Shown here: piece by piece, positions 18,236-24,474 of the stretch
Layout: every line of letters begins with the position of its first letter
Numbering within the stretch: position 1 is the stretch's first letter
NCBI GenBank assembly: GCA_949298535.1
Contig: CASFXA010000126.1
Location: forward strand, 1-44,808
Reading direction: 5' to 3'
DNA length: 44,808 nt
Origin: an uncultured Oscillospiraceae bacterium
GTDB lineage: Bacteria > Bacillota > Clostridia > Oscillospirales > Ruminococcaceae
The notes under the pieces: generated by a model
What the model was told of the DNA's origin: nothing
Seen by the model: only the letters and a program-made list of their open reading frames with translations
The model's database searches: none
Made by a program: the position numbers and the translations under genes

Positions 18236-19054
18236 TTACTGGGCGGAAGCACAACCAGCGCAGCCGCCGTTGACCCCTGCGATGTGGATCACCTTGGTGG
18301 GGCACACTTCGGCGCACTTGCCGCAATTGGTGCACTTATCCGGATCAATGGAAGCCAGATTGTCCTTGACGGTGATGGCTCCAAATTCGCAGGTCTTCTG
18401 ACATCTCATACAGCCGATGCAGCCGGCAGAGCAAACTTTTCTCACCTGCGCGCCCTTGTCATGAGAGGAACAGCAAACCCGAACCAGGCTGTCAGATTTC
18501 ACCAGAGCGATCAGCAGCTGAGGACAGGCCTTGGCGCAGGCGCCGCAGCCGGTGCAAAGATCACGGTCCACCACAGCCAGGCCATTCTCAATGGACAGAG
18601 CGCCGAATTTACACACATCGACGCAGTCTCCAAAGCCCAGGCAGCCATAGGAACAGCTTCTGCGGCCCTTGTAGAAGGTGCTGCAGGCCTTGCAGGTCTG
18701 GGGGCCCTTGTAATCCATCTTATATTCTGCGGTGTCAAAGGTGGCGGCACATCTGACCACAGCTTTTACATCCTGAACGCCGGCAAATTCCACGCCCAGA
18801 ATCTCGCTGATCTGACGGGCTACAGGCTCACCGCCGGGGATACACAGGTTTGTCTTGGTGTTGGGATCCTCCGCCAGCTTCTTGGCATAGTCGTCACAGC
18901 CGGCGAATCCGCAGGCGCCGCAGTTGGCCCCAGGCAGAACGGCACGAACATCTTCAGCAGTCTGATTGACGGGGACAGCCATCAGCTTGGCAGCGATGAC
19001 CAGAATCACGCCCAGCACCAGACCAATGGCAGATACGGTTATAACAGGCATCAT
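18236..19054 (-). CDS. rnfB: RnfB, iron-sulfur subunit of the Rnf complex
   Basis: 272 residues. An N-terminal membrane helix (VITVSAIGLVLGVILVIAAKL) is followed by the RnfB-specific cluster domain (PGANCGACGFAGCDDY, near 42-57, then a Cys near 75). Next come ferredoxin-like motifs: a cysteine-rich central part (CSYGCLGFGDCVDVC), CTGCGACAKACP, CIGCMRCQKTCE and CTNCGKCAEVCP. It receives electrons from reduced ferredoxin and passes them to the membrane flavin subunits. The protein ends in GGCAGCASAQ, two extra cysteines beyond the last cluster motif. It is the last gene of the operon. Confidence 0.96.
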   Translation of the reverse strand: MMPVITVSAIGLVLGVILVIAAKLMAVPVNQTAEDVRAVLPGANCGACGFAGCDDYAKKLAEDPNTKTNLCIPGGEPVARQISEILGVEFAGVQDVKAVVRCAATFDTAEYKMDYKGPQTCKACSTFYKGRRSCSYGCLGFGDCVDVCKFGALSIENGLAVVDRDLCTGCGACAKACPQLLIALVKSDSLVRVCCSSHDKGAQVRKVCSAGCIGCMRCQKTCEFGAITVKDNLASIDPDKCTNCGKCAEVCPTKVIHIAGVNGGCAGCASAQ

Positions 19055-19070: not shown

Positions 19071-19664
19071 TTACTTAATCATGTTCTCGATCAGGCCGCC
19101 AAATCCCATAAAGGACATGGAGACGATGGAGGCAGCAATCAGAGTGATGGGGATACCCTGGAAGTTCTCAGAGATCTTGGAGTTTGCAATCCGCATCCGC
19201 ACGCCGCAGAACAGCACCATGGCCAGCATGAAGCCGATACCAGCGCCCAGGGAGTTGACCATGGACTCCACAAAGCCATATTCCTCAGAGATATTCAGCA
19301 CCGTAACACCCAGCACCGCGCAGTTGGTGGTAATCAGGGGCAGGTAGATACCCAGAGAAGCATGAAGAACAGGAACGAACTTTTTCAGGATCATCTCCAC
19401 CAGCTGTACCAACGCGGCAATCACCAGAATGAAAACCACGGTCTGCATATAATCCATCCCGTTGGGAGCCAGCAGATAGCTGTAAATCGGCCAGGTGGCG
19501 GCGGTGGCCATCAGCATAACAAAGATAACAGCCACGCTCATACCGATAGCGGAATCCAGCTTTTTGGAAACGCCCAGGAAGGGGCAGATGCCCATGAACT
19601 TGGACAATACAAAGTTATCGACCAGAATAGCGCTAAAAAGAATGACAATCAAATCTTTTACCAT
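19071..19664 (-). CDS. rnfA: RnfA, membrane subunit of the Rnf complex
   Basis: 197 residues with six hydrophobic helices, typical for RnfA/NqrE. It opens with LIVILFSAILVDNFVLSKFMGICPFLGV and has the mid-protein LITTNCAVLGV segment; the conserved cysteines in these two helices bind the intramembrane [2Fe-2S] cluster shared with RnfE. It forms the ion-conducting core with RnfD and RnfE. The start is 3 bases after the rnfE stop. Rnf oxidises ferredoxin, reduces NAD+ and exports Na+ or H+. Confidence 0.96.
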   Translation of the reverse strand: MVKDLIVILFSAILVDNFVLSKFMGICPFLGVSKKLDSAIGMSVAVIFVMLMATAATWPIYSYLLAPNGMDYMQTVVFILVIAALVQLVEMILKKFVPVLHASLGIYLPLITTNCAVLGVTVLNISEEYGFVESMVNSLGAGIGFMLAMVLFCGVRMRIANSKISENFQGIPITLIAASIVSMSFMGFGGLIENMIK

Positions 19665-19667
19665 GGA

Positions 19668-20348
19668 TCAGCACCCCTCTTTCTCAGCGGACTGGCAGGC
19701 AGCCGCGGAAGGACAGCCGGCGCAGGCCATGGACTTTTTCTTGATGGCCTTGCCCTTGGTCAGCTTATTGACCAGAGCGATAATGCAGCCGAAGGCAAAG
19801 AAGCCGCCGGGAGCCATGGTCATAATGGAGATGGGATCGATGGCGGAAGGCAGGATCTGGATCCCGCACCAGGTGCCGGCGCCAAAAATCTCACGGATGG
19901 TACCCATGGCAGCCAAAGCCAGGGTGAAACCAATGCCCATACCGATACCGTCCAGGGCGGAATCCACCACGGAATTCTTGTTGGCGAACATCTCAGCACG
20001 TCCCAGAATGATGCAGTTAACCACGATCAGGGGAATAAAGATGCCCAACGTATCATACAGGCTCTTGGTGAAAGCCTCCATCAGCAGCTGCACCACCGTT
20101 ACAAAGCCAGCGATGAGTACGATGTAGCAAGGGATACGCACCTTGTCAGGAATAGCCTTTTTCAAGGCGGAAATAACGATATTGGAGCAGACCAATACGA
20201 AGGTGGCCGCAATACCCATACCGACACCATTGAGAACAGAGGTGGATGTAGCCAAAGTGGGGCAGGTGCCCAGCACCAGAACCAGCACCGGGTTCTCTTT
20301 GATAATGCCGTTGAGTAAGATCTTCAGCTTGTTGTTCTTATTGCTCAT
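19668..20348 (-). CDS. rnfE: RnfE, membrane subunit of the Rnf complex, with cysteine-rich C-terminal tail
   Basis: 226 residues. The first 205 form the six-helix RnfE/NqrD core (NGIIKENPVLVLVLGTCPTLA at the start, LIVVNCIILGRAEMFA in the middle), with the two helix cysteines that complete the [2Fe-2S] site with RnfA. Beyond the last helix a charged linker (NKLTKGKAIKKKS) leads to a tail with four cysteines: CAGC, then C and C spaced among Ala/Ser/Glu. The core alone accounts for the usual RnfE length of about 200-215, so the tail is an addition. It could bind metal or a cluster; this is inference. Confidence 0.95.
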   Translation of the reverse strand: MSNKNNKLKILLNGIIKENPVLVLVLGTCPTLATSTSVLNGVGMGIAATFVLVCSNIVISALKKAIPDKVRIPCYIVLIAGFVTVVQLLMEAFTKSLYDTLGIFIPLIVVNCIILGRAEMFANKNSVVDSALDGIGMGIGFTLALAAMGTIREIFGAGTWCGIQILPSAIDPISIMTMAPGGFFAFGCIIALVNKLTKGKAIKKKSMACAGCPSAAACQSAEKEGC

Positions 20349-20353
20349 TGCTC

Positions 20354-21655
20354 TTACGCTCCTTTCGAAGCATTAAAGGCAGTAAAGGCTTTCTGCACCG
20401 CTTCGTTGACAGCGTTGGAGGAAACGGTGGCGCCGGAAACAGCGTCAGGAGTCTCCCCTGCGCCCAGGCCGATCCAGGTGTCAGTGTAAGCAGCCTCGCT
20501 GGTCTTGGTGCCAACACCCCTTGTTTCATTGCCGGCATCCACAGTGATAGCGGTGATCTTTCCATCAGCGCCGATAGTCACAGTGACAGTGACATCGCCC
20601 ATGTAGCCTGCGCCAGTGGTGGTGATCGCCATGCTGCCATCCTCGTAGGAAACAGCCTTCTCAGTACCAGCCAGCTCCACTTCAGTGCCGGATACGGCAG
20701 GAGCTTCAGAAGCTGCGGAGGAGTCCTCAGCAGGAGCAGAGGCGGTCAGGTTGGCAGCCAGCTGCAGAGCCTGATCCACAGCCTTCTTAAAGCCGTCAGA
20801 GGACTGGGTAGCGCCGGAAACAGCGGTAATACCGTCTGTGCTGTCCTTGCCCTTGTACTGATCGGTGTAAGCGGCCTCGCCAGTCTGAGTGCCCAAGCCA
20901 GCGGTCTCGGTGTTTTCACCCAACGCAACGCCTACAATTTTGCCATCCAAACCGATACCGGTGTAAACCTGCATCTTGGTGGTGGCGCCCATATAACCCT
21001 GAGCCTCGGTGACGATGAGGTAACCCTCGTCCCCAGCCTTCATGGCCTTCACGGCACCCTCCAGGGTGATTTCCTCAAAGTTCTCCACATTGGGGAAGAT
21101 GGCCTGCTCGGGAGTGGTGGTGTCGCCGGTACTTACTTCCACGCCAGCCAGCTCGCCATAGGCTTTAAAGGCGTTCTGGACGTTAGTCTTGAACGCGGTG
21201 GAAGAAATGGTCGCGCCGGAAACTGCCTCCACACCGTTCAGAGAGGAATCCTTGCCCTTGTACTGATCGGTGTAGGCAGGCTCGCCGGTCTTGGTGCCAA
21301 GACCCGCGGTCTCGCTGTTGCTCATCAGCTTGACAGAATCAATGGTGCCATCGGACTTGATACCCACCATTACCTGCATAGGACCGCCGTAACCTTTGGC
21401 CTCGGCGGTGATGACGTAGCCGGCGCCGTTGGCAGCCTTGTAAGCATCCACAACGCCTTCCACAGTAGTTTCTACTTTGTCAAACTTATCGGCATCCGCC
21501 AGAACCTCGATCCGGGCGGCGTCAGCCTCGGCGGCCTTGGCAGCCTCAATGATCGGCTCGGTTGTATTATAGGTCAGTACCAGCGCCGCAGAAATGACGA
21601 TGCAAATGCCGGTCAGAATCGCTGCGGGCGCCACAAATTCCTTCACAAATTTCAT
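20354..21655 (-). CDS. rnfG: RnfG with three tandem FMN-binding domains
   Basis: 433 residues, about twice the usual 180-230 of RnfG. One N-terminal membrane helix (about 8-28, PAAILTGICIVISAALVLTY) precedes three copies of the extracytoplasmic FMN-binding domain at about 78-166, 209-300 and 341-428. Each copy ends in SGAT; the flavin-accepting threonines would be T149, T283 and T410. Copies 1 and 2 are very alike (ETAGLGT, AYTDQYKGKDS) and copy 3 is more diverged. An Ala/Ser/Glu linker (about 302-328) separates copies 2 and 3. RnfG carries covalent FMN attached by ApbE and moves electrons on the outer face of the membrane. No apbE is in this window. The stop lies 5 bases before rnfE and the start overlaps rnfD by 4. 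Confidence 0.94.
   Translation of the reverse strand: MKFVKEFVAPAAILTGICIVISAALVLTYNTTEPIIEAAKAAEADAARIEVLADADKFDKVETTVEGVVDAYKAANGAGYVITAEAKGYGGPMQVMVGIKSDGTIDSVKLMSNSETAGLGTKTGEPAYTDQYKGKDSSLNGVEAVSGATISSTAFKTNVQNAFKAYGELAGVEVSTGDTTTPEQAIFPNVENFEEITLEGAVKAMKAGDEGYLIVTEAQGYMGATTKMQVYTGIGLDGKIVGVALGENTETAGLGTQTGEAAYTDQYKGKDSTDGITAVSGATQSSDGFKKAVDQALQLAANLTASAPAEDSSAASEAPAVSGTEVELAGTEKAVSYEDGSMAITTTGAGYMGDVTVTVTIGADGKITAITVDAGNETRGVGTKTSEAAYTDTWIGLGAGETPDAVSGATVSSNAVNEAVQKAFTAFNASKGA
20372..21424 (-). repeat. Three in-frame repeats encoding FMN-binding domains inside rnfG
   Basis: Repeat units lie at about 21158-21424, 20756-21031 and 20372-20635. Units 1 and 2 share an identical 26-base stretch (21249-21274 and 20844-20869), evidence of relatively recent duplication; unit 3 has diverged further at both the DNA and protein level. 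Confidence 0.85.
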
Positions 21656-22602
21656 TTAGAAACACCTCCGAATGGCATCTTTTTAATCGCTCCGTCAATG
21701 TGCGGGGTCACAATGTTCATCAGCATGATGGCAAAGGACATACCCTCCGGATAACTACCGTAGGCCCGGATCAGCACAGTGATGACGCCGATACCGATAC
21801 CATAGATCACCTTGCCGGGCTCGAGGACAGGAGAAGTGACATAATCAGTGGCCATAAAGAACGCACCCAGCATCGTGCCGCCGGAAACCAGCATATACCA
21901 GGGATTGAGGCCGGTTACCAGGGACATGACAAACACCGTCACCAGCACGGTAACAGGAATGGTGGGAGTGATGACCTTTTTCCAAATCAGATAGATGCCA
22001 CCCACCAGCAGGGCAATGGCGCAGGTCTCGCCCAGAGAACCGCCCCGGATACCCAGGAGCATATTGATCATGTCGGGGGCGTCGGCGATCTTGGCGTCAG
22101 CCGCAGTGAGGATCGCCAGAGGAGTCGCGCCGGAAACAGCATCCACCGGACCACCCACAAAGTTGTTGGGATCCGCCCAGGTGGTCATCCGGCCAGAGAA
22201 TGAAATCAGCAGGAAGATACGGGCCGCGATGGCGGGATTGACAAAGTTGTCGCCGATGCCGCCAAACAGCTGCTTGACGACGATAATCGCCATGGCGTCC
22301 GCCAAAATGACCATCCACACCGGAAGAGTGGAGGGAACATTGAAAGCGATGAGCATACCGGTGACCACAGCGCTCCAGTCGGAGATGGTGCAGTCCAGGT
22401 GCATCAGTTTTCGATAAAGGTACTCAAAAAACACGGAAAACGCAACGGAAACCAGAATCAGCACCAACGCCTTCACGCCGAAAATCAGCGCCGCGGCAAT
22501 TGCAGCCGGAACCATGGCCGCCGCCACATTCATCATAATGGAACTGGTGGAAACCCCATCCTTTACGTGAGGAGAGGGCGTTACGATCAGCTTGTTCTCC
22601 AA
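21652..22602 (-). CDS. rnfD: RnfD, flavin-binding membrane subunit of the Rnf complex
   Basis: 316 residues with many hydrophobic helices. The covalent flavin site is VDAVSGATPLAIL, threonine near residue 160, preceded by the conserved GDNFVNPAIAARIFLL. The N-terminal SPHVKDGVSTSSIMMNV also matches RnfD/NqrB. It carries covalent FMN and, with RnfA/E/G, couples electron flow to ion transport. Its stop overlaps the rnfG start by 4 bases, and its start is 13 bases after rnfC. Confidence 0.96.
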   Translation of the reverse strand: MENKLIVTPSPHVKDGVSTSSIMMNVAAAMVPAAIAAALIFGVKALVLILVSVAFSVFFEYLYRKLMHLDCTISDWSAVVTGMLIAFNVPSTLPVWMVILADAMAIIVVKQLFGGIGDNFVNPAIAARIFLLISFSGRMTTWADPNNFVGGPVDAVSGATPLAILTAADAKIADAPDMINMLLGIRGGSLGETCAIALLVGGIYLIWKKVITPTIPVTVLVTVFVMSLVTGLNPWYMLVSGGTMLGAFFMATDYVTSPVLEPGKVIYGIGIGVITVLIRAYGSYPEGMSFAIMLMNIVTPHIDGAIKKMPFGGVSK

Positions 22603-22615
22603 AGGTCACACCCCC

Positions 22616-23950
22616 TTAATTACTTTGCTCACGGAGCAGCTGTTTGCCCAGACGGTTGCTCATGACCAGATCTCTCTTCGCCGGACAGACATAGGCGCAG
22701 CAGCCGCACTCCATACACAGGTTCACCTTCAGGGCGCGGAGCTTGTCCACATTGCGGGACCGATAGGCTTTATCCAACTGCGCGGGAGCCAGGTTGAAGG
22801 GACAGGCTCTGAGGCATCTGCCGCAACGGATGCAGGCGGTCTCAGGCTCCTGTACGCTATCCTCCTCGTTAAAGGCCAGGATACCGTTGTTGTTCTTGAG
22901 CAGCGGGGCCTCGTCGCTGGTGACGACAATGCCCATCATGGGACCGCCCATGATGATCTTTTTGGGCTCGGTCTTGTAGCCGCCGCAGAAGTCGATGATG
23001 TCCTTGAAGGAAGCGCCCAGCGGGGCGATGACATTCTTGGGCTCCTTGATGGCGCTGCCGTCCACGGTGACCAGCTTCTCCACCAGCGGCATACCGGTTT
23101 CGAGGTAATCGGCAATTTTGGTCAGGGTCGCCACGTTATCCACAATAACCCCCACATCGGCAGGAAGTTTTCCTTCCGGAACCACCTTGCCGGTGCACTC
23201 AAAGATGATGACCTTTTCAGCGCCCTGGGGATACTTGGAGCGGAGAGTCTTGACCGATACCCCTTCCATGGAAGCGGTGGCCTCCGTCAGTTTGGCAATG
23301 GCCTCGGGCTTATTGTCCTCGATGGCGATGATGGCCTCGTCCAGCTCCAGATACTTTTTGACAATCTGGATGCCTTTGACCAGCTTGTCGGTCTGCTCCA
23401 GCATCAAGCGCAGGTCGCAGGTGAGGTAGGGCTCACATTCCGCACCATTGACCACCAGAGTTTTGACCTCGCTGAGGTTCTTGGGATTGAGCTTGATATG
23501 AGTGGGGAAACCCGCTCCGCCCAGACCAACCAATCCACATTCCCGTACAGCCTTCATCAGGTCGGCGTGGTTGTTGACCACGGGAGGCTGAAGGTCGGGA
23601 CAGACGGTCTGCTCTTTGTCGGTGGCGATAACCACCGCCTTGCATTTCGCGCCGGAGGAAATGACGAAATCGGCGATCTCAGTCACGGTACCGGACACGC
23701 TGGAGAAGATTGGGGAAGACATAAAAGCATCGCTGTCGCCGATTTTTTGACCGACGGTCACGGTGTCCTTCGCCTTCACCAGCGGCGTACAGGGAGCGCC
23801 CATATGCTGGATCATGGGAATGACAATCCGATCCGGCACCGGCATCCTTACAGCCTCGCTGGCAGAGGTATTTTTGCAATGCTTCACCTTCACACCATTA
23901 AGAGCTTTGCTGAATTCTGATGGCACTTGCACATCCCTCCAAAATCTCAT
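22616..23950 (-). CDS. rnfC: RnfC, NADH-binding subunit of the Rnf complex
   Basis: About 444 residues if it starts at the ATG that overlaps the previous stop (ATGA). A GTG eight codons later (23926) is the better match to the GGAGG there, and either start gives the family length. Features in order: barrel-sandwich segment with IPMIQHMGAPCTPLVKAKDTVTVGQ, Rossmann-like NADH/FMN part (GLGGAGFPTHIKL, VNGAECEPYLTCD), the SLBB-like part, and two [4Fe-4S] motifs (CIRCGRCLRACP and CMECGCCAYVCP). It is the cytoplasmic site where NAD+ is reduced. The frame stays open upstream into the Gx gene, but that part is not RnfC. Confidence 0.96.
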   Translation of the reverse strand: MRFWRDVQVPSEFSKALNGVKVKHCKNTSASEAVRMPVPDRIVIPMIQHMGAPCTPLVKAKDTVTVGQKIGDSDAFMSSPIFSSVSGTVTEIADFVISSGAKCKAVVIATDKEQTVCPDLQPPVVNNHADLMKAVRECGLVGLGGAGFPTHIKLNPKNLSEVKTLVVNGAECEPYLTCDLRLMLEQTDKLVKGIQIVKKYLELDEAIIAIEDNKPEAIAKLTEATASMEGVSVKTLRSKYPQGAEKVIIFECTGKVVPEGKLPADVGVIVDNVATLTKIADYLETGMPLVEKLVTVDGSAIKEPKNVIAPLGASFKDIIDFCGGYKTEPKKIIMGGPMMGIVVTSDEAPLLKNNNGILAFNEEDSVQEPETACIRCGRCLRACPFNLAPAQLDKAYRSRNVDKLRALKVNLCMECGCCAYVCPAKRDLVMSNRLGKQLLREQSN

Positions 23951-24474
23951 TTCAGGTTGAGCCGATTGATATATGGCATAACGGCCTTTAACACAATGCC
24001 GGTCACGACCCCCATGCCGATCCCGGACAACACCAAAAGGGGTAACAGATAAAAGATCTTCGTCGTCCTCAACAGGTACCGGGAAAGGATCAGTTGGCCA
24101 ACATTGTGTCCAATTGCGCCGAAAATGCTCAGGATGAGATAATTTTTTGAAATCTCCGGCAGCAGCGACAGCAGGAGCATCACACACACCGACGTCAAAC
24201 CGCCCGACAGGCTCAGCGCCGCAGCCACAGGCCCCCGGAGCAGAAAGACAGAAAACGCTTTTAACACCGCGATGGTCAGCCCCTCCCGGACTCCCAGAGT
24301 GAACAGGGCGTACATGGTCACGATGTTGGACAGACCCAGCTTGACTCCTGGCGGCAGCATGGGCAGCACCGGCAGCATGGATTCAAAGATGCTCAGCACC
24401 AACGCGACGGCAAAAAGCATCCCTGTGAAAGCCACCCGCTTGGCCAGGCCACCGCCCTGTCTGGAATGGGTCAT
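23947..24474 (-). CDS. Gx-transporter-family membrane protein (annotated elsewhere as heptaprenyl diphosphate synthase component I)
   Basis: 175 residues with about five hydrophobic helices. Landmarks are LPMLPPGVKLGLSNIVTMYALFTLG near residue 40 and FGAIGHNVGQLILSRYLL near 120, the conserved signature of the family (PF07456 in my memory). GGAGTG lies a few bases before the ATG. The old name is misleading: the protein looks like a small transporter or energy-coupling-type S component, not a synthase. It is the first gene of the rnf transcript, overlapping rnfC by 4 bases, which argues for a joint function such as cofactor (flavin or quinone precursor) supply. That role is inference. Confidence 0.8.
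   Translation of the reverse strand: MTHSRQGGGLAKRVAFTGMLFAVALVLSIFESMLPVLPMLPPGVKLGLSNIVTMYALFTLGVREGLTIAVLKAFSVFLLRGPVAAALSLSGGLTSVCVMLLLSLLPEISKNYLILSIFGAIGHNVGQLILSRYLLRTTKIFYLLPLLVLSGIGMGVVTGIVLKAVMPYINRLNLK

Follow-up and report, generated by a model that had tools for sequence, protein, structure and literature searches.

A conserved three-domain RnfG in a complete Rnf operon of an uncultured Oscillospiraceae bacterium, with a possible outward electron branch

The window, a 44,808-nt stretch of DNA from an uncultured Oscillospiraceae bacterium (assembly GCA_949298535.1, contig CASFXA010000126.1), contains a complete rnf operon in the order C-D-G-E-A-B. The products of rnfC, rnfD, rnfE, rnfA and rnfB each score above the cut-off of their own NCBIfam model, and rnfG lies between rnfD and rnfE (Table 1). 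The longest ORF for rnfC extends to 24187, with the GTG at 23893 being the likelier start. RnfD retains its own SGAT flavinylation motif, as read in the translation.

Table 1. The rnf operon, the adjoining EetB-family gene and the parts of RnfG, in window coordinates
Feature	Position	Strand	Basis
EetB-family gene (PF07456), directly before rnfC	23947..24474	-	128.1 bits, cut-off 30
rnfC	22616..23893	-	TIGR01945 485.9 bits, match from residue 97 of longest ORF
rnfD	21652..22602	-	TIGR01946 312.8 bits, cut-off 207.05
rnfG, 433 aa, three FMN_bind domains	20354..21655	-	ATG start; TIGR01947 and PF04205 matches
RnfG hydrophobic membrane anchor, about residues 7-29 within predicted helix 2-51	21569..21637	-	Sequence and predicted structure; boundaries read by eye
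RnfG FMN_bind D1, residues 78-166, acceptor Thr149	21158..21424	-	Profile match and motif
RnfG FMN_bind D2, residues 210-299, acceptor Thr283	20759..21028	-	Profile match and motif
RnfG D2-D3 linker, Ala/Ser/Glu-rich, residues 300-338	20642..20758	-	Low confidence 308-319; dN/dS 0.385
RnfG FMN_bind D3, residues 339-427, acceptor Thr410	20375..20641	-	Profile match and motif
rnfE	19668..20348	-	TIGR01948 252.6 bits, cut-off 213.4
rnfA	19071..19664	-	TIGR01943 257.6 bits, cut-off 229.3
rnfB	18236..19054	-	TIGR01944 99.5 bits, cut-off 68.7

Another contig of the same genome (C5) carries a further Rnf-like cluster, which is diverged and runs C-D-E-A. Within the 3.9 kb covered, neither rnfG nor rnfB was found, the RnfC-like protein gave no match to Complex1_51K, and the RnfD-like protein, inspected by eye, is without the SGAT motif. 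A C-D-E-A-like order was also seen in four other genomes of the family (L217-L220), and two rnfD matches were present in many of the 148 family genomes drawn.

The rnfG frame has no internal stop, and its position, strand and length agree with the original prediction, which had read the product as one membrane anchor followed by three complete FMN-binding domains with intact SGAT motifs. This architecture was borne out by profile searches. Pfam PF04205 (FMN_bind) matched the whole protein with 160.5 bits in the expected three stretches (cut-off 22) and, when the domains were scored singly in the whole-genome search, D1 (71.5 bits), D2 (47.5 bits) and D3 (54.3 bits) all exceeded the cut-off. 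The SGAT motifs start at residues 146, 280 and 407, placing the acceptors at exactly the threonines that had been named. The NCBIfam rnfG model (TIGR01947) gave 115.5 bits on the whole protein, above its cut-off of 102, and 78.6 bits, below that cut-off, on the anchor and D1 alone; the whole protein passes because the scores of the three domains add up. The other Rnf-subtype family models missed their cut-offs on RnfG (NF045876, 126.4 bits against 205). A TonB_C Pfam match overlapping D1 (28.5 bits), of which no single stretch passes, was read as a cross-match.

An AlphaFold2 model of RnfG alone (39 sequences) has one long N-terminal helix (residues 2-51) and three confident domains, with a mean pLDDT of 90.4 for the domains and a pLDDT below 50 for residues 308-319 between D2 and D3. 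The pTM of 0.53 means that the relative placement of D1, D2 and D3 is unpredicted, and hence that the model gives no flavin-to-flavin distance; in the model they resemble a flexible string of beads. The anchor and juxtamembrane helix belong, among the three domains, to D1 only, and the helix followed by the D1 fold resembles the solved chains 7zc6_G and 9eri_G, that is, the RnfG layout of an N-terminal transmembrane helix, a linker helix and a globular domain. We assign an outward topology to the window protein because this topology is known for RnfG. When the model was used for a structure search, the RnfG proteins of A. woodii and C. tetanomorphum led, and the 16 best matches were all Rnf/Nqr subunits, with solved RnfG and NqrC chains on top and noise below about rank 20. 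The best solved match for D1 with its anchor was the C. tetanomorphum RnfG (7zc6_G, E 3.8e-13), and for D2 alone and D3 alone it was the A. woodii RnfG, the ranking for D3 being 9eri_G first, 8p2b second and 7zc6_G third. With more than one FMN_bind domain behind an anchor, and with FMN attachment predicted, the window RnfG would fit the multi-flavinylated class.

Nine of the ten genomes searched in the genus gave FMN_bind matches (G004 gave none), and all nine rnfG genes adjoin rnfD and encode either three domains (G000, G001, G005, G006, G007 and G008) or two (G002, G003 and G009). D2 is present in all nine. D3 is lost or decayed in three, being absent from G009 and, by eye, reduced to a motif-less C-terminal remnant in G002 and G003. 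The same three-domain protein, of 434 aa, is encoded by G001, a genome of six contigs, and the other species of the genus carry diverged versions. An assembly duplication as the source of the three domains is excluded by the presence of the same architecture in these independent genomes.

Domain counts in relatives were made with a purpose-built profile, derived from D1, D2 and D3 of the window together with the sequences that matched them, in place of the Pfam model. In the family draw of 148 genomes, rnfD exceeded its cut-off in 121 and the domains of rnfG could be counted in 117, the genomes left out being two in which rnfD sits close to or at the end of its contig with no rnfG beside it (G067 and G130), one with rnfD at a contig edge (G031) and one more. 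Genomes with two rnfG loci were classed by the higher domain count, one locus at which two matches overlap in a single domain split by an insert (L165) was set to one domain, and six loci (L216-L220 and L222) that held a second RnfD-like paralogue or fell under the cut-off were left out. Counted in this way, an RnfG with two to four domains occurs in 26 of the 117 genomes and in 21 of 98 genera, and on an RnfD tree of 127 rows, in which 37 of 124 inner branches are well supported, the state switches between single and multiple at least 14 times.

Several variant architectures were seen during this survey. Six family genomes (G091, G019, G093, G090, G059 and G053) have apparent RnfD-RnfG fusions, in a single open frame without a stop between the two parts; five of these frames (L040, L042, L043, L138 and L162) are about 500 aa long, and the sixth (L135) is 680 aa with two FMN_bind domains. 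At seven loci (L075, L081, L084, L086, L096, L111 and L114) the RnfG is about 390-430 aa long, with FMN_bind at each end and a middle without a profile match, and in several of these the motif is altered in one domain. The RnfGs of G034 and G145 (L187 and L188) have four FMN_bind domains, seemingly from duplication of a two-domain block; on the domain tree described below, the third is placed close to first domains and the fourth groups with the second, as such a block duplication would give.

The original prediction took D1 and D2 to be a recently duplicated pair, and this part did not stand. Within the window protein the identities are 60.9% for D1-D2, 43.2% for D1-D3 and 44.8% for D2-D3, and D2 is closer to the D2 domains of G009 (72.2%) and G007 (71.1%) than to its own D1. 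At the DNA level, D1 and D2 share 65.1% identity, and the longest stretch they have in common is 26 bases. In a tree of 113 domains, built from 90 columns with many open forks and with single-domain rows thinned to one in three, the D2 domains of the genus form one group (support 91), five of its six D3 domains form a clade (99) and 26 extra domains from other genera form a separate group (94). In AU tests on 84 domains (further single-domain rows and the long-branched L156 domains and L178 D2 being left out), trees joining D1 with D2 in the window and G001 were rejected (p-AU 0.0055), and with them a recent D1/D2 duplication. One common origin of all extra domains in the family was likewise rejected (p-AU 0.025), as was a single clade of all second domains (p-AU 5e-72). 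A single origin of D1 and D2 of the genus (p 0.41) or of its D1, D2 and D3 (p 0.40) was not rejected, nor was placement of the third domain of G007 with the other D3s (p 0.69). The groups in the two rejected family-wide tests were named after the domain tree had been viewed and the sets mix positions, so that these tests are support, not proof, for several origins. The simplest reading of the sequences is that D1 and D2 would have been duplicated when the genus arose or earlier, and that extra domains had at least one further, separate origin in other members of the family. The original prediction held D3 to be the older copy, but its larger divergence gives no order of age, because D3 also evolves faster and the tree does not fix its place. 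The broader idea that such arrays evolve by domain expansion holds at the level of the family, as seen from the state changes, the domain tree and the AU tests.

For the one genome pair compared, the window and G001 (dS 0.47-0.88), dN/dS was 0.017 for D1, 0.013 for the first linker, 0.013 for D2, 0.385 for the second linker and 0.121 for D3, with 0.035 for rnfD as a control. All three domains are under purifying selection, strongest on D1 and D2 and looser on D3. An acceptor Thr or Ser is retained in 46/47 extra domains, 32/32 first domains and 94/94 single domains, counts that refer to detected domains; as decayed domains escape the profile, 46/47 is an upper figure. These data bear on the possibility of near-neutral turnover, in which FMN_bind units come and go by recombination and have no function of their own. 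Such turnover would account for a copy number of 2 or 3 in the genus and 1 to 4 in the family, for the many state changes on the weakly supported RnfD tree and for the fate of D3 in three of the nine genus members. The low dN/dS of D2 and D3, the presence of D2 throughout the genus and the retention of the acceptor in the extra domains that were detected argue against it, and we consider it quite unlikely. The three-domain array is genuine, conserved, old and under selection.

A selected array could still serve the ordinary Rnf reaction, with the extra domains acting as parallel shuttle heads that alternate with D1 between RnfA-E and RnfD, so that more carrier flavin is present locally and the normal reaction runs faster. 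All three domains are RnfG-like in sequence, D2 is constrained like D1, and the segment preceding D2 resembles that preceding D1 in the alignment, which would make D2 a whole RnfG soluble unit. On the other hand, the anchor and juxtamembrane helix are confined to D1, and the extra domains have not stayed like D1 but have diverged into tree groups of their own, which suggests a different job. We regard parallel heads as unlikely.

A genome search found one apbE, of the exported type and located elsewhere in this 86% complete genome, as a 440-aa ORF with a lipoprotein-like N-terminus by eye. The gene directly before rnfC belongs to PF07456, for which the usual, old annotation is the Pfam label Hpre_diP_synt_I (heptaprenyl diphosphate synthase component I). 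This family has been reported as EetB, which binds the substrate in an ECF-type FAD exporter required for flavinylation, and as co-located with Rnf genes in 572 Clostridia genomes (PMC9973259). By analogy, the window gene is probably the substrate-binding subunit of such an exporter and would supply FAD for flavinylation. A relative of it lies upstream of rnfD, on the same strand, in at least 12 of the 72 named loci long enough to tell, a lower bound from a search with one sequence. At the first Asp position of the ApbE consensus, D1 has Glu, D2 has Thr and D3 has Asp, and 59 of 94 single-domain RnfGs also have Asp; a review describes only minor effects of an Asp-to-Ala change in one tested protein (PMC12052999).

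Candidate acceptors are encoded elsewhere in the genome. Three further FMN_bind proteins have lipoprotein-like starts by eye; those on contigs C133 and C157 combine FMN_bind with FAD_binding_2, and that on C140 has FMN_bind in a frame that leaves the contig end. In the reductase-like C157 protein (L232:2096-4075), we observed ASAT in place of SGAT. Other FMN_bind matches were found in 21 of the 26 genomes with a multi-domain RnfG versus 34 of the 91 with a single domain (Fisher p 1.1e-4; Mann-Whitney p 8.8e-6). Across five kinship-independent pairs on supported branches, however, the same association amounted to 2.1 one way, 0.8 the opposite way and 2.1 without a difference. Plain counts thus tie multi-domain RnfG strongly to the presence of other FMN_bind proteins, but the link is not shown when kinship is taken into account. 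The five multi-domain genomes without another FMN_bind match, which have no such protein as a possible acceptor, would suit an electron buffer, in which the extra flavins would hold electrons in reserve at the pump and even out fluctuations in supply and demand without an external acceptor. By general flavin chemistry, an RnfG with three covalent flavins could store as many as six electrons. Set against this is the greater frequency of other FMN_bind proteins alongside multi-domain RnfG, in plain counts that ignore kinship, and we judge a buffer very unlikely.

The best explanation, and the one towards which we lean, is that this is the RnfG of an ordinary RnfCDGEAB pump whose two added RnfG-derived domains form an outward electron branch to external acceptors. 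The protein would be a subunit of an ion-translocating ferredoxin:NAD+ oxidoreductase, with FMN carried on all three threonines and D2 and D3 hung outward on the anchored D1. By analogy with known Rnf and Nqr structures, D1 would pick up electrons at the [2Fe-2S] cluster of RnfA-E and deliver them to the RnfD FMN; this standard shuttle role is given to D1 because it alone has the anchor and juxtamembrane linker. As a side branch, D2 and then the flexibly tethered D3 may draw some of the electrons from D1 and pass them to acceptors beyond the membrane, for example the predicted flavinylated fumarate-reductase-like lipoproteins whose genes lie elsewhere in this genome. We hypothesize such a hand-off from the RnfG array to exported FMN_bind reductases.

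The complete operon, the three domains above cut-off, the RnfG-like character of D2 and D3, their low dN/dS and their conserved acceptor residues are all consistent with an outward branch, as are the single apbE, the adjoining EetB-family gene, the three lipoprotein-like FMN_bind proteins and the plain counts of such proteins among relatives. There is also precedent in SaFMN3, with three FMNs (PMC10339131), and in the branch hypothesis published for multi-flavinylated RnfGs (PMC8238504). Several points weigh on the other side: flavinylation and acceptor are predicted, the association is not borne out by the five kinship-free pairs, five of the 26 multi-domain genomes have no other FMN_bind match, D3 is dispensable within the genus, the placement of the domains is unpredicted, and D1 and D2 depart from the first Asp of the ApbE consensus, a position at which substitution had minor effects in one protein.

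A more far-reaching version, which we regard as doubtful, is that Rnf serves as a ferredoxin-driven respiratory outlet. D1 would run the pump, and D2 and D3 would conduct electrons of low potential across the cell wall. The receivers would be exported lipoproteins of the same cell, flavinylated and fumarate-reductase-like, and in this way a fermenting gut bacterium might use Rnf to respire extracellular substrates without quinones or cytochromes. As arrays seem to have arisen several times in one family, this would, if true, be a recurrent adaptation. If the extra flavins do form a branch, the role of Rnf would go beyond NAD+-linked pumping, and it could feed reductases or minerals on the far side of the membrane. 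The family provides a natural experiment: closely related genomes differ in the number of domains (1, 2, 3 or 4) while their operons are otherwise alike, and within the genus some third domains have decayed. Comparison of these homologues can test what each flavin does, making the published hypothesis of a bifurcated Rnf directly testable.

The original prediction set the window protein against an RnfG with one FMN-binding domain. That description is in keeping with a review of RNF and NQR, in which RnfG is listed with a single covalent FMN and carries electrons as a shuttle from RnfA-E to RnfD. It is incomplete, as multi-flavinylated RnfGs are in print. Meheust et al. (2021) reported 2081 proteins with multiple FMN domains in 1530 genomes and 'a number of' RNF clusters with multi-flavinylated RnfGs, for which they proposed a second path to extracytosolic acceptors (PMC8238504). 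Both the multi-domain RnfG and the idea of an outward branch are therefore already published; the distribution, the several origins and the selection are new here. Our literature search of open-licence papers found no experimental work on a multi-domain RnfG. The RnfGs of Meheust et al. share with the window protein more than one FMN_bind domain in an Rnf cluster and the same proposed role, but the examples singled out in the available text also have a multi-haem domain, and none was seen in the window RnfG. The solved RnfGs of C. tetanomorphum (7zc6_G) and A. woodii (9eri_G) have the anchor, linker helix and D1 in common with the window protein and one FMN_bind domain each, whereas the window RnfG has two more after D1.

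In SaFMN3, all three predicted FMNs were found by mass spectrometry (Tong et al., 2023, PMC10339131), and multi-flavinylated proteins modelled by Huang et al. (2024) were described as often resembling beads on a string. The system of SaFMN3 and PDB 8p2b has three or four tandem FMN_bind domains after an N-terminal anchor, as described for it, and in this resembles the window RnfG. It is, however, found outside Rnf operons, and the three domains of the window match solved RnfG better than 8p2b. The window also has in common with the EetB/FmnA FAD-export system a PF07456 gene adjoining an rnf operon; the function of that system was demonstrated in Listeria (PMC9973259), whereas the window gene is known from its sequence.
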